From assembly GCF_003234855.1 (NCBI RefSeq), contig NZ_QKTO01000001.1, forward strand, positions 1-64,000: a stretch of DNA of 64,000 bases. The letters run 5' to 3'. The notes beneath the pieces were generated by a model. That model had not been told where the DNA came from. It saw only the letters and a list, made by a program, of their open reading frames with translations, and did not search any database. The stretch is from Curtobacterium sp. MCBD17_032. GTDB taxonomy: Bacteria; Actinomycetota; Actinomycetes; Actinomycetales; Microbacteriaceae. Below, one piece after another: positions 39,825 to 59,979 of the stretch. The first letter of the stretch is position 1; the number at the start of each line of letters is the position of its first letter. The translations under genes were made by a program, and so were the position numbers.

Positions 39825-40327
39825 TGTAAGCGTGCTGCAGCACTGGAGTCTCGCGCCTGGACGCCGTGGCGCTGCGACGCAGTGCTAGCGCTATGCAAGC
39901 GGTACGCAAGCATGCGCATGCGACGCCACGTGCAACCTGCGCAATGGACGTGTGTGTCACCGTCACAGGCGGTTTCTACAGGTTGCGCGCTTCATCTTCG
40001 GCGATCGCGCAGGAGTGGCATCTGGCGTTCTCGAGCGGAGAAATGAAGCGGCGGCGTGGCGTAACGAATCAGGAGTCGCGCCACGCCGCCTTGGCTCCGG
40101 TAACCAACCGGTGCGTGACGTAAACGGTATCAGTTGGACGGAAACGGCACCGTGCAACGTTGCAAATCGCAGCGAAGGCATAACGCTTTGAAATCGTTAC
40201 CGGAATCGCATGACGCCAAGCTCTGGGCTGGCAAGATGACAATGCCCCAGGAAGGAATCAGGGTCCTGGGAAGGGAGGGCGGGGGCCTCACCAACCCTCG
40301 TTCTCCGTCCCACCAGGAGCGCGGATG
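39825..40327. other. Intergenic region with a strong inverted repeat
   Basis: About 500 bp of lower GC than its surroundings without a supported gene. It contains a perfect 12-bp inverted repeat, GGCGGCGTGGCG (40050-40061) and CGCCACGCCGCC (40079-40090), with a 17-base loop. No T-run follows, so it is not a classical terminator. It could form a stable RNA hairpin between the phosphatase promoter and the end of the AraC gene. Confidence 0.55.
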
Positions 40328-55990: not shown

Positions 55991-56329
55991 ATGAAACACA
56001 TCCACTACGACAGCAGCACGATCCTCACCAGCGATGACGTTGCCGACGCGGTCATCGAGTACGCGGCGGCTCTCTCCGGTGGAGACCGTGCAGACACCGT
56101 CGCGGTCCCCGCGATTGCGGCCGACGGAACCATGACGACGACCAAGATCCTCATCGGACCGTCCAGCGAAATCGTCATCGAGGACGCCGAAGAGGACGAC
56201 CTCGAGCTCGAAAACGACGAGTTTGTCGCGCGTCTCCGCGCCGCGGCGGCGACGTTCGGTCACAGTGAGCCGATCCACGCCGACACCCGTTCCGACCTCA
56301 CCACCGGTCAGGACGACGTGACGTCCTAG
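55991..56329 (+). CDS. Small protein, paralogue of the one at 54492
   Basis: A 112-residue protein with a strong site (GGGAAGGAGCACCA) before ATG. It starts MKHIHYDSSTILTSDDVADAV and has the acidic middle segment DAEEDDLELENDEF and a polar tail. Similar over most of its length to the product at 54492. It is the second small gene after the AraC gene and convergent with the AraC gene at 56453. Confidence 0.8.
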   Translation: MKHIHYDSSTILTSDDVADAVIEYAAALSGGDRADTVAVPAIAADGTMTTTKILIGPSSEIVIEDAEEDDLELENDEFVARLRAAAATFGHSEPIHADTRSDLTTGQDDVTS

Positions 56330-56452: not shown

Positions 56453-57406
56453 CTAGCTGCTGCGCAGAGTGTCGCGCGGGTACTCCCCGTACTGCTGCGC
56501 GTACGCCGCGGAGAACCGGCCGGCGTGGGCGAACCCCCATGCGCGGGCGATATCGGAGACGTTGGTCGTGACCGGGTCCGCGTGCAACAGTTCCTGCCGG
56601 ATCCGACTGAGCCGGACCGAGCGGATGTAGGCGTTCGGGGACATGCCCAGCACCCGGTTGAACGCGACCTGCAGGGCACGCAGGCTGAGGTTCGCAAGCG
56701 TCGCCAGATCCGTACTGGTAATCGGGAGGTGCGCGTGCGCGTGGACGTACTCCGCGACCATCCGGATCCGTGCGTTCTGCGGCAGCAGCAGCTCGGCGGG
56801 CATCTCCGCCGTGGCCTGCGGGTACAGCTCCAGCAATGACACGGCGGCGAGGCGGCTCATCTCGGCCTGCAGCAGCGGAGAGGCGTTCCGGTCCATGGTC
56901 GTGGCGGAGATGAGTTGCACCGTCTGCCGCCACTGCCGCATCGCGCCGTCGTCGGGGCGCGCCGTGTGGTCGAAGTTCGTCCGGCTGACCGCCAGGCCGC
57001 GCTCCGCTGCGATCTCGTCCACCGCTGTCCGGTTGACCTGGACGAGGCGCTGGTCGTAGTCCTCGAAGGCGAAGTCGAACGCGTGCCCGGGCCACATCTG
57101 TGGCTGGCCGGGGGTGAGGTGGATCTCGTTCCTGCCGACGTCGAGCACGCCGCTGCCGCGGGTGATCCACTGCACGACGAAGTCGTCGCCCTGCGGCATT
57201 TCCCCGGTGAGCCGGCCGTCGAACTGCACGGCGCGGAGCGTCATGGAAGCGTCCCCCGCGGCGGCGTACCGGTACGAGAACGGTGTGTCGGTTGTGTCCG
57301 CTGCCCAGGCGATCCCGGCGTACGCGGTCGCGAGGGTCTGCTTCGCAGCGTCGAGGTCATCGCCGCGTTCGTCGACGCGGATGGAAGCGGGGGTCGGGTC
57401 AGTCAT
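56453..57406 (-). CDS. AraC-family regulator
   Basis: A 317-residue AraC protein. The N-terminal ligand domain (GRNEIHLTPGQPQMWPG) is of the AraC-binding-like type, and the C-terminal HTH pair (about 205-315) contains ITSTDLATLANLSLRALQVAFNRVLGMSPNAYIR and NVSDIARAWGFAHAGRFSAAYAQQYGEYPRDTL. Similar in architecture to the other two AraC proteins in the window. Its target is unknown. Confidence 0.88.
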   Translation of the reverse strand: MTDPTPASIRVDERGDDLDAAKQTLATAYAGIAWAADTTDTPFSYRYAAAGDASMTLRAVQFDGRLTGEMPQGDDFVVQWITRGSGVLDVGRNEIHLTPGQPQMWPGHAFDFAFEDYDQRLVQVNRTAVDEIAAERGLAVSRTNFDHTARPDDGAMRQWRQTVQLISATTMDRNASPLLQAEMSRLAAVSLLELYPQATAEMPAELLLPQNARIRMVAEYVHAHAHLPITSTDLATLANLSLRALQVAFNRVLGMSPNAYIRSVRLSRIRQELLHADPVTTNVSDIARAWGFAHAGRFSAAYAQQYGEYPRDTLRSS

Positions 57407-57471: not shown

Positions 57472-58071
57472 TCAGAACAGGGATGGTGCCTCGTACACGG
57501 ACATCAGCATCGCGGCCGCCATCCTGCCGGTACGCGCAGGGGTGATGTTGCCGTGGATCGCGGCCTCGACCTGGGCACCCTGAACGAGGAGCGTCAGCGC
57601 GGGGGCGAGGTGCGCTGGCATCTCAGCGGCGGCGCAGAGCATCGCGATGTGCTGTTCGAGCTGGCGGAGGTGATCATTGGCAAGCCCTGCAACGACGGGG
57701 TCGAGCCGCCCGAGTTCGCCGTAACCGTTGATGAACGCACATCCCCGGTAGCTGCGATCGGTGAAGCAGTCCTCGAGGTAGCTGAAGACAGCGAGGACCT
57801 GGTCGCGCGGATCCTCGAAGGACGCCTCCGCGGCGATGAGGGCGGTCATCCACTCGTCGTGGCGGTACCGGAGGGCAGCGACGACGAGTGCCTGCTTCGA
57901 CGGGAACACGGCTCGAAGCTCTGCGGGTGTGACGTGTGCTCCGTCTGCCACGCGCTCGACCGCTACCGGGGTGACACCCTCGGCGGTGAACAACGCATCC
58001 GCGGACACCACGATTGCGTCCTGGACCGCGGTGCGGTCAGGAGCGGTGGCGATCAGCGAAGGAGGATTCAT
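57472..58071 (-). CDS. TetR-family regulator
   Basis: A 199-residue TetR protein. The DNA-binding domain at about 15-65 has VVSADALFTAEGVTPVAVERVADGAHVTPAELRAVFPSKQALVVAALRYRHDEW. The rest is the ligand domain. A start eight codons upstream (MSGSLRTHM) is equally possible; neither has a good ribosome-binding site. It is 65 bp upstream of the AraC gene on the same strand and may form an operon with it. Confidence 0.85.
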   Translation of the reverse strand: MNPPSLIATAPDRTAVQDAIVVSADALFTAEGVTPVAVERVADGAHVTPAELRAVFPSKQALVVAALRYRHDEWMTALIAAEASFEDPRDQVLAVFSYLEDCFTDRSYRGCAFINGYGELGRLDPVVAGLANDHLRQLEQHIAMLCAAAEMPAHLAPALTLLVQGAQVEAAIHGNITPARTGRMAAAMLMSVYEAPSLF

Positions 58072-58303: not shown

Positions 58304-58477
58304 CTAGGCGACGACGAAGAAGTCAGCGTAGGAGGGCTCAGCCGGAACGAACGTGGTACCGGTGCCGTCGATGCGGGCAGCGACGATCGCGTTGAGCTCC
58401 GACGGCGGCGTCAGGCCGCGACGTCGCCATTCGACCGGGCGCCGGCGGAGAGTGTCGAGAGAGAGCGTGTCACGCAT
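58304..58477 (-). CDS. Small protein B1 of a duplicated two-gene module
   Basis: A 57-residue protein (MRDTLSLDTLRRRPVEW...). Its core LRRRPVEWRRRGLTPPSE matches LRRPPSAWQRAGLTPPHE of the 57-residue protein at 59189, giving the pattern LRRxPxxWxRxGLTPPxE. Its ATG overlaps the end of the 32-residue gene A1 by eight bases (58470-58477), so it is translationally coupled. Composition and conservation argue that it is real; it is too small to appear in normal gene calling. Function unknown. Confidence 0.65.
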   Translation of the reverse strand: MRDTLSLDTLRRRPVEWRRRGLTPPSELNAIVAARIDGTGTTFVPAEPSYADFFVVA

Positions 58478-58568
58478 CGGTGCGATCCTGTTCTGTGATG
58501 AGGGCGAGCACGTCGATCGGTTGCGTCAGCGCGAGATCGACGTCCGTGAAGGTCATAGTGGTGCTCAT
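58470..58568 (-). CDS. Small peptide A1 of a duplicated two-gene module
   Basis: A 32-residue peptide (MSTTMTFTDVDLALTQPIDV...). Its core DLALTQPIDVLALI matches DLHLPPTQPIDITHLL in the remnant at 59359. It starts just after the stop of the 67-residue gene at 58574 and overlaps B1, so the three form a compact leftward operon. The second methionine could also be the start. I cannot assign a role; a leader or signalling peptide is only a guess. Confidence 0.55.
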   Translation of the reverse strand: MSTTMTFTDVDLALTQPIDVLALITEQDRTDA

Positions 58569-58573
58569 GGTGA

Positions 58574-58777
58574 CTAGGCGGCGAGGCCGAGCACGACGGC
58601 AGCGGACGCTGCGACCGTGACGGACAGGATCCCGGTCGCCGTAGCGAGGATCATCAGGGTCCGCTGGCGCGCTTGCTCCTGCACCTCGGTGAAGGGGCTG
58701 CGCTGCGAAGCGCGGGATGCGGCGAAGGAGGGGCGCTTCGCTGCGAGGGTGGTCTCGGGAGCGGTGATCGTGGTCAC
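58574..58777 (-). CDS. Small membrane-anchored protein at the head of the A1-B1 operon
   Basis: A 67-residue protein starting at GTG with AAGGAG six bases upstream. The N-terminal half is polar and basic (TTLAAKRPSFAASRASQRSPFTEVQEQARQR) and the C-terminal half a single membrane helix (TLMILATATGILSVTVAASAAVVLGLAA). It ends five bases before the start of A1. A tail-anchored topology would keep the basic half in the cytoplasm. Family unknown. Confidence 0.72.
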   Translation of the reverse strand: MTTITAPETTLAAKRPSFAASRASQRSPFTEVQEQARQRTLMILATATGILSVTVAASAAVVLGLAA

Positions 58778-58980
58778 GATGTCTCCTTGTTCTGGCCGTT
58801 GCCGGCCTGTTCGATCCGGTGCTCCGGACATGAGATGACCATAGAAGCGAAAAGGTTCACGATGTGAAGGATCTGACGAAGACGTCGAATCCCGGATAGC
58901 GGACCGGGCGGCTGCGACGAGAAGTGACCAGATCCAGCGTGCAGATCTGACCGCACAGGCAGGACCGTAGAGTTCGATGC

Positions 58981-59139
58981 GTGCCGACCGAATCCGGAGT
59001 CCGCCGAGGTCTCGCCAGCTGCCAAGCCGTCTACTCCACGTTCCAGTGCCAACTCCTCGACGGGCACGCAGGATCGCACTGCTACGACAGGGAGACCGCA
59101 GGGGGCGAGATGCACGTGAGCTGGGGCAACGACACCTGA
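58981..59139 (+). CDS. Small Cys-His protein (52 residues)
   Basis: Starts at GTG and ends at TGA after ...SWGNDT. It shares the spaced motif C-x8-C-x5-GHxGxH (CQAVYSTFQCQLLDGHAGSH) with the 53-residue protein at 12033, with no resemblance outside it. That two unlinked frames of equal length keep this spacing argues that both are genes, perhaps a zinc-binding family. No clear ribosome-binding site is visible before the GTG, so the start is tentative. Confidence 0.6.
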   Translation: MPTESGVRRGLASCQAVYSTFQCQLLDGHAGSHCYDRETAGGEMHVSWGNDT

Positions 59140-59188
59140 ACGGACAGTACGGTGCGCCGTACCGCTGCCGAGCAGGCGGATGAACGGT

Positions 59189-59362
59189 TCAGATGTGGGT
59201 GGGGTCGCAGCGGCAGTCGCATGCGCGGGGGTGCTGGATGACGAGTTGATCGGCGAGCACGGCGTGCTCGTGCGGGGGTGTCAGGCCAGCACGTTGCCAG
59301 GCGGATGGGGGCCGGCGAAGGTGCCGCACCTCGCGGCAGGTCATCGTCACCGTCCGCGTCAT
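59189..59362 (-). CDS. Small protein B2 of a duplicated two-gene module
   Basis: A 57-residue protein, the same length as B1, with the matching core LRRPPSAWQRAGLTPPHE. It differs from B1 in the C-terminal half, which has three cysteines in ACDCRCDPTH. Its ATG overlaps the end of the A2 remnant by ATGA, the same order as in the first copy. Function unknown. Confidence 0.58.
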   Translation of the reverse strand: MTRTVTMTCREVRHLRRPPSAWQRAGLTPPHEHAVLADQLVIQHPRACDCRCDPTHI

Positions 59363-59451
59363 GCGATTGTCTCGTCGCCGGTCGGGCCTGAGACGAGCAG
59401 ATGTGTGATGTCGATCGGCTGCGTCGGGGGAAGGTGCAGATCTGCGGGCGA
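59359..59451 (-). pseudogene. Remnant A2, truncated copy of small peptide A1
   Basis: An open stretch (...PADLHLPPTQPIDITHLLVS...) homologous to A1 that lacks a start codon; a stop lies just upstream (59452-59454). Its 5' side runs into the fragment of a GntR gene on the other strand, so the upstream part was probably lost by recombination. Confidence 0.5.
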
Positions 59452-59979
59452 TCAGCTCACCGCATGGCTCGGTGTCTCCCGCACCCCTGTTCGGGAGGCG
59501 ATCGCGCGTCTCGTGGTTGAGGGGTTCGTCGAGATGGCCGCGGACCGGTACACGAAGGTCAGCTCGCTCTCAGTGAGCGGGTACGACTACGCTCGCCAGT
59601 CCTCGCCAGTCCTCGCCAGTCCTCGCCAGTCCTCGCCAGTCCTCGCCAGTCCTCGCCAGTCCTCGCCAGCCTGCACCGACTCGCGCTCGAGCAAGCGGCC
59701 GGTGTCGACAGGACGGTCAGAGTCGAGGTCGCCGCCCAAGCGACCGCAGCTCGTCGCGCCATCGAGGCGGAGGACTTGAGCGGGTACCGGAGCTTGATGG
59801 ATGCATACGGCAGGCTCGTCGCAGCGCTCGGTAACCCACTGTTCATTGACGCTGAGCGCAACGCCCGCGGACGAGCGAGGTTCAACGCTGCCGCTGCCGA
59901 CGTCAGCATTGAATCACTCGACTGCCGCCGCCGTCTCGATAGGCGATCGGCGATCGGCTATCGATACGCGCCAGCGTGA
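59408..59979 (+). pseudogene. Broken GntR-family (FCD-type) regulator
   Basis: The helix-turn-helix core DQLTAWLGVSRTPVREAIARLVVEGFVEM is clear at about 59450-59535, and FCD-like helices (LHRLALEQAAGVDRT, EAEDLSGYRSLMDAYGRLV, NPLFIDAERNARGRARF) follow at about 59670-59890. The two halves are in different frames, separated by eight copies of a 10-bp repeat (59591-59670). The N-terminal recognition helix region before GDQLT is missing or replaced, and the C-terminus decays after ADVSIE. Either a decayed gene or one switched by repeat number. Confidence 0.72.
59591..59670. repeat. Eight tandem copies of a 10-bp repeat inside a coding region
   Basis: The unit CTCGCCAGTC is repeated with one variant at each end (GCTCGCCAGT first, CCTCGCCAGC last). 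Ten is not a multiple of three, so every gain or loss shifts the frame of the GntR gene; counts of three, six or nine restore it, while the eight present here do not. Confidence 0.92.

Follow-up and report, generated by a model that had tools for sequence, protein, structure and literature searches.

Small proteins of a family that we call B form a genus-wide, multicopy and purifying-selected group in Curtobacterium, and its accessory copies are found in modules that adjoin genes for TetR-, AraC- or MarR-family regulators. One such module lies in the window (the whole 64,000-nucleotide stretch that was analysed), where the minus strand reads, in order, H, A1, B1, a probable C1, a TetR-family and an AraC-family regulator. 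We regard the families H, A, B and C as new, and their architecture with them. At a probability of roughly 0.4, our preferred reading is that these proteins would be small effectors of sensor-controlled response modules, with B as an adaptor that docks via a C-terminal YADFF peptide. The families themselves are solid; the mechanism is what we infer from them.

The small genes in the window

The row begins with H (58574–58777, minus strand), a 67-residue protein with a hydrophobic C-terminal segment of the tail-anchored type, whose GTG start is preceded by AAGGAG, a strong ribosome site. It is followed by the 32-residue peptide A1 (58470–58568, minus strand; core TQPIDxxxLI) and by the 57-residue B1 (58304–58477, minus strand), which comprises two predicted helices and a C-terminal EPSYADFF tail and overlaps A1 by 8 nt (ATGCGTGA). 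After a gap of 17 nt comes C1 (58128–58286, minus strand), probably a third small protein, of 52 residues, with the core HRxTWxRLxRL. The TetR-family gene (57472–58071, minus strand; 199 residues) gave a TetR_N match at E=1.1e-5, computed on 57472–58068, and the AraC-family gene (56453–57406, minus strand; 317 residues) matched HTH_18 (E=1.6e-20) and AraC_binding_2 (E=7e-9). These two regulator genes 3′ of the module had gone unmentioned in the sequence-only reading; they are recurrent partners. Further on, on the plus strand (55991–56329), lies a 112-residue protein without Pfam or NCBIfam match whose cluster, c23, is a recurrent neighbour of B modules, also adjoining B copies in L063, L144, L152, L159 and L162; the L063 member is 48% identical to that of the window.

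Membership of the window proteins in their families was assessed with profiles from which they had been left out. The B profile built without B1 and B2 recovered both from all six frames of the window (E=1.1e-25 and 4.3e-6; next best 0.29), which bears out the sequence-only reading in its view that their likeness exceeds chance, and the H profile built without the window row matched the window's H at E=9.7e-21. The C profile built without C1 ranked it top in the window at E=0.0015 (next 0.47), so that C1 probably continues the H-A1-B1 row, being weaker as a family member than the other parts; a stronger value from an earlier C search was a self-match, because C1 was a row of that alignment.

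The second pair likewise agrees with its first description, i.e., two 57-residue B proteins, overlapping stop and start codons in both pairs, and a truncated A2. B2 (59189–59362, minus strand) is a diverged B relative lacking the YADFF tail, with a Cys-containing C-terminus, and overlaps by 4 nt (ATGA) the A-type frame A2 (59359–59451, minus strand), which has no start codon in its frame. The A2 frame runs out of an opposite-strand remnant of a GntR-family gene that abuts it (59453–59539, plus strand); this remnant covers profile positions 29–57 only, in a match of E=1e-6 within the open reading frame 59180–59779. The same frame contains a perfect 10-bp tandem repeat (CTCGCCAGTC, 7.8 copies, 59592–59669). 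An intact relative of A2-B2 is present in another species (G051), with a B2 that is 73% identical and a B1-type frame directly 3′ of it. From these sequences, A2-B2 is taken as a diverged relative whose 5′ end has been lost, and the two pairs are not a simple recent duplication. The equal length of B1 and B2, formerly counted as a signal, is a coincidence, since their cores start at different residues and B2 is devoid of the (D/E)P(S/T)YADFF tail.

The GC content falls from about 0.70–0.75 in the first 40 kb to 0.62–0.67 at 40000–64000, the part that carries the module, which suggests acquired DNA; a tRNA search of 40000–64000 found none, and the gene calling used for context misses genes in this low-GC part.

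Distribution, selection and genomic settings

With the B profile (E<=1e-4), the family was found in all 66 Curtobacterium genomes at 3–9 copies each, seven of them in the genome under study; at E<=1e-3, none of the 388 non-Curtobacterium genomes in a Microbacteriaceae sample of 398 was matched. The common core reads LRxxPxEWRRRGLTPPxxLxAxVxxR ... (D/E)P(S/T)YADFF. Of 90 distinct B proteins, 85 have the tail pattern, the median distance to the C-terminus being 2 residues; of the five exceptions, one is B2, three differ by a single residue ahead of YADFF/YGDFF, and one has a nearby variant. Comparison of the sequences indicates purifying selection on the core copies, i.e., those at the core locus described below: in 18 orthologues (153 pairs), the pooled pN/pS was 0.353 and the median dN/dS 0.276, and in 11 gap-free sequences pN/pS was 0.37 in frame versus 1.45 and 2.17 in the other two frames; the differences numbered 421 at the first, 375 at the second and 859 at the third codon position, which varied most. 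For the window module, pooled values from three sequences only were 0.503 (B) and 0.383 (H). The sequence-only reading had named a lack of B homologues in related genomes, or of purifying selection, as what would refute it; homologues were found across Curtobacterium, and the core copies are under purifying selection. H occurs in 57 of 66 Curtobacterium genomes and, being missing from nine, is not obligatory; nor is A, since 28 distinct H-B modules include, by a strict pattern that misses at least one likely case (L009), 13 with an intervening A-type peptide and 15 without.

A structure model of B (pLDDT 81.2, pTM only 0.49) predicts helices at residues 7–19 (7–12/14–19) and 25–41 and, beyond a linker modelled with less certainty, a short one at 50–54 that is the YADFF tail. 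In this model, the tail helix has the look of a docking peptide. The idea that the module is undescribed held up in the libraries searched: none of A1, B1, B2, H and C1 scored above the cut-off in Pfam, NCBIfam, PHROGs or PADLOC, and none of 13 B members had a Pfam match. H is weakly similar to DUF3040 (PF11239; E=0.003, 18.2 bits), below the gathering cut-off of 24.7 bits, and the other H members scanned against Pfam had no match. The B profile reached E=0.14 at best against PDB sequences, and Foldseek of the B model against the PDB returned no match with E<=10. No phage matched B1 in tblastn, and a plasmid search yielded two records with B, both from Curtobacterium. Homology between B and C was considered and rejected (hhalign probability 0.2%). 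The literature on Curtobacterium small proteins and Curtobacterium MarR, in the portions accessible, contained no description of the H, A, B or C proteins.

Genomic settings were compared in 74 context loci, among which the window is counted twice, a second time as L148. In 42 of these, clusters c5 and c4 occur together and define the core B locus, with one c5 member identified by Pfam as a subtilase-family protein and one c4 member as adenylosuccinate synthetase (purA); for most loci this is a fixed chromosomal setting, and no regulator was recognised as direct neighbour of core B beside the subtilase gene and purA. The accessory copies lie near regulator genes, a TetR cluster (c12) being present in 15/74 and an AraC cluster (c9) in 19/74 context loci (window counted twice in both). 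H-A-B rows like that of the window, with TetR and AraC, were found at L060, L153, L064, L065, L075, L145 and L151, the orientation of AraC varying among them, and MarR genes adjoin B at L155, L157, L147 and L108. On plasmids, pCspYC1 carries AraC, H, B and TetR (no A frame is listed there, the gene table being incomplete), and P20 carries two MarR genes, H, an A-B frame, a further small protein and AraC. At L303 (P20) and L314 (G038:C53), A and B are apparently fused or in one frame (TEPIDMGPLL ... PxxWHRRG ... EPTYGDFL). An AraC-type protein (L144:8831-10039) beside a B module seems, by eye, to end in a second helix-turn-helix region.

The H-C and C genes lie between the genes for an ATP-dependent DNA ligase and a LigD primase-polymerase, identities that come from Pfam in the own genome and from sequence patterns in the other loci, with L220 showing the ligase side only. 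By eye, the L220 contig leaves the LigD region abruptly, the polymerase gene being cut and followed by a transporter-like gene; this is possibly an assembly joint or a rearrangement.

Beyond Curtobacterium, relatives of H were detected in 24 genomes of six other genera. One locus (L309, g34) reads MarR, a YADFI protein, an operator-like site (2 mismatches to the operator described below), H, a YADFF protein and a MarR of the clade discussed there; another (L311, g34) reads AraC and TetR (42% and 43% identity to those of the window), a small protein that has a hydrophobic end and was not among the hits of the H profile, and a YADFF protein. Genus g64 has, at L310, a lone YADFF protein preceded by a site with 3 mismatches; its H follows a clade MarR (L312) or precedes an A-like peptide (L313). 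Across genera, the N-terminal parts of the YADFF proteins thus differ, while tail and regulator partners persist. A comparison of B with the YADFF proteins of other genera gave a probability of 94%, which is driven by the tail and partly circular because the B profile had served to select these proteins. Weak B matches (E 1e-3 to 1e-2) occurred in 17 other-genus genomes, and of seven such loci inspected five held a small YADF-tailed protein and two did not; weak other-genus C matches numbered 20. A further small-protein family, D (WRLADTDFWAASYxGYFGGTIDKQGxHYFVRDTF), without Pfam match, follows H in other genera and in G038 (L251, L253, L255; also L143:11744-12073), and cluster c7 near core B looks, by eye, related to it.

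A shared operator and its candidate binder

About 40 nt before the core B start, the palindrome GTAGTTAGnCnAACTAG is conserved in 39 aligned loci, of which 37 are core copies and two are A-B copies in which its form is weaker. As a 17-bp operator at <=1 mismatch, it has 125 sites in the 66 Curtobacterium genomes (0–4 per genome) and is present in 65 of them with 1–4 sites each; the reversed pattern, used as control, occurred twice. Among the matches listed, 63 sites are within 500 bp of B, 33 of H and 10 of both, and the remaining 19 comprise 18 directly upstream of C genes (L220 included) and one near neither. The latter (L231, G037:C16:6484) precedes a gene for a transglycosylase-associated (GlsB/YeaQ-like) membrane protein. 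The arrangements under the operator are B alone, C alone, H-C and H-B; through it, genes of B, H and C that lie at unlinked places are tied together by shared control. In C promoters the operator is a perfect dyad (GTTAGGCTAAC), which has its centre in common with the DtxR/IdeR iron box; the outer halves differ, and an iron-box reading was set aside. A third operator match in the own genome has 2 mismatches (C12:366930).

The likely binder, to judge from gene neighbourhoods and co-occurrence, is a clade of MarR proteins whose identity is supported by Pfam. Clade members are present in 65/66 genomes (E<=1e-15). A MarR gene abuts an operator-H-B row in 10/66 genomes, and elsewhere the clade gene lies apart. 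The only genome without a clade member at this threshold, G050, is also the only one without the operator at <=1 mismatch; its H-C locus is intact, with no site better than 6 mismatches, and the coincidence rests on this one genome. Promoters of a second clade member, MarR-2, carry CTAGACnnnCTAACTAG in 11/11 sequences, at 4 mismatches from the operator (4/15 defined positions), a likeness reached by 1–7 of 200 shuffles. MarR-1 promoters have no conserved operator (3–6 mismatches, in many cases a level that shuffled sequences also reach), and the own-genome MarR closest to the query (L304) has none either (7 mismatches). In having a MarR gene, a palindromic operator and small target genes in a row, the system resembles the autoregulated operons of the MarR family, with the difference that its targets are small proteins at unlinked loci instead of a pump or enzyme.

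This operator is found upstream of core B, H and C, and not at the window copy, where the best site of the TAGTTAG type has 4 mismatches, i.e., the operator is absent; the MarR link therefore does not apply to this copy. Its likely operator is another palindrome, TTCACGATGTGAA (58856–58868, no strand assigned), 79 nt upstream of H and the only match in the 64 kb, with 0.03 expected. The same palindrome is located upstream of H at L060 and L153 and of the MarR-linked B at L147; its pattern occurs in 21/314 loci, many of which are overlapping copies of the same places, and at L313 it does not adjoin H.

Proposed working of the modules and competing explanations

In the scheme that we prefer, the MarR clade, which is marked by an N-terminal SGYW motif, would repress the core B gene, the H-C or C gene and the MarR-linked H-B modules, and binding of a ligand or stress signal to MarR would lift the repression. 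Other copies, such as that of the window, would have been placed under TetR/AraC control, making MarR, TetR and AraC interchangeable sensors and B the constant effector, so that many sensors would feed one effector type. B itself would be a small cytosolic adaptor docking with its YADFF C-terminal peptide on one constant cell component, H would hold the response at the membrane, and A would serve as a translation-coupled helper peptide. The wider and more tentative claim is that YADFF-tailed microproteins plug MarR, TetR and AraC sensors into one constant machine, with H as membrane partner and an operator-tied, genus-wide mini-regulon, and that they may represent an undescribed class of response system in Microbacteriaceae.

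Two alternatives compete with parts of this scheme. B and A could act as co-regulators, negative or positive, on the transcription factor encoded next to them, forming a feedback loop within each module, which would fit the adjacency of accessory B copies to TetR and AraC or MarR genes and has precedents in proteins of such size, namely ANR proteins for AraC regulators and DUF397/BldB-type proteins for their XRE partners (PMC5570504 and PMC10294661, in the portions available). We consider this doubtful, as the B tail stays constant though the regulator families differ, and core B, beside the subtilase gene and purA, has no recognised regulator as direct neighbour; varying regulators combined with a constant tail favour a constant partner other than the neighbouring regulator. 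Another possibility is that a different regulator binds the operator, or that the element is the promoter of an alternative sigma factor, the link to MarR being accidental. Most of the aligned core promoters have a GGACA element immediately 5′ of the palindrome, which points this way, as does the lack of the operator in the MarR-1 promoters and at the nearest own-genome MarR; the perfect dyad of the C promoters, the MarR abutment in ten genomes, the joint absence in G050 and the related site in MarR-2 promoters make it unlikely.

The modes of action that the sequence-only reading had left side by side fare worse. Tiny overlapping genes, a hydrophobic peptide and plasmid copies are reminiscent of a toxin-antitoxin or membrane-toxin pair, with H as toxic membrane peptide and A or B as antidote, but B alone, C alone and H-C are also found behind the shared operator, each of the three thus occurring apart from the others, so that no two-gene pair is obligatory, core B is present in 66/66 genomes in a mostly fixed chromosomal setting, and no toxin or antitoxin domain was found for A, B or C in Pfam, NCBIfam and PADLOC, H showing the sub-cut-off DUF3040 likeness only; such a pair is improbable. 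Slighter still are the chances that A and B, as precursors, give rise to a secreted or modified signalling peptide, notwithstanding their small size, the operon with regulators and the short conserved C-terminus: the tail is near-invariant across paralogues, versus the conserved leader and variable core of such precursors, no signal sequence was seen by eye, and neither a receptor nor a modifying or maturation enzyme was recognised among the neighbour clusters, some of which were named or run against Pfam. MFS transporters near two modules are discounted here, as exporters are common beside MarR genes. That the open reading frames are spurious or decayed junk we regard as very improbable in view of the frame-specific selection on core B and the family-wide conservation; the 5′-truncated A2-B2, beside the GntR remnant and the 10-bp tandem repeat, and the GC content, lower than in the first 40 kb, speak for such a reading, which may apply to A2-B2 alone.

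Among known systems, the XRE-DUF397 and WhiJ-BldB pairs of Streptomyces comprise multicopy small proteins beside transcription-factor genes, e.g., bldB with ten paralogues in S. venezuelae (PMC10294661; also PMC6262351 and PMC10364602, as far as their available text shows). B is similarly small, multicopy and regulator-linked in an actinobacterial genus; however, its partners are MarR, TetR and AraC instead of XRE, its core copies have no recognised regulator neighbour, and, as B is without any Pfam match, it has none to DUF397. The ANR proteins, described from Gram-negative pathogens as small proteins tied to AraC-family regulators (PMC5570504, in the part available), share size and AraC linkage with B, whereas B pairs with three regulator types; B1 matched none of the models that Pfam and NCBIfam contain.

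If the adaptor reading is correct, the combination of a constant YADFF tail with changing N-terminal parts and sensors points to one docking partner that a single pull-down could reveal, and, with an operator so dedicated (1–4 sites per genome in 65/66 genomes), a simple reporter would be enough to find the inducing signal. It would further mean that the family libraries searched lack proteins of <75 residues that form a core regulon of a whole plant- and soil-associated genus. More generally, shared regulation, instead of length, can validate short operon genes.

As to the signal, the module probably helps the cell to respond to stress or a chemical. Stress is the likely theme of the response, given a manganese catalase gene as neighbour at L147, a ferritin-like gene adjoining MarR-1, which in our own reading is Dps-type, the LigD neighbours, and the rise of MarR-family genes in desiccated Curtobacterium (PMC12029717, the available part of which does not name these loci). 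For the plasmid copy in the P20 row (L303), a BLUF-domain gene nearby hints at light as a possible signal.
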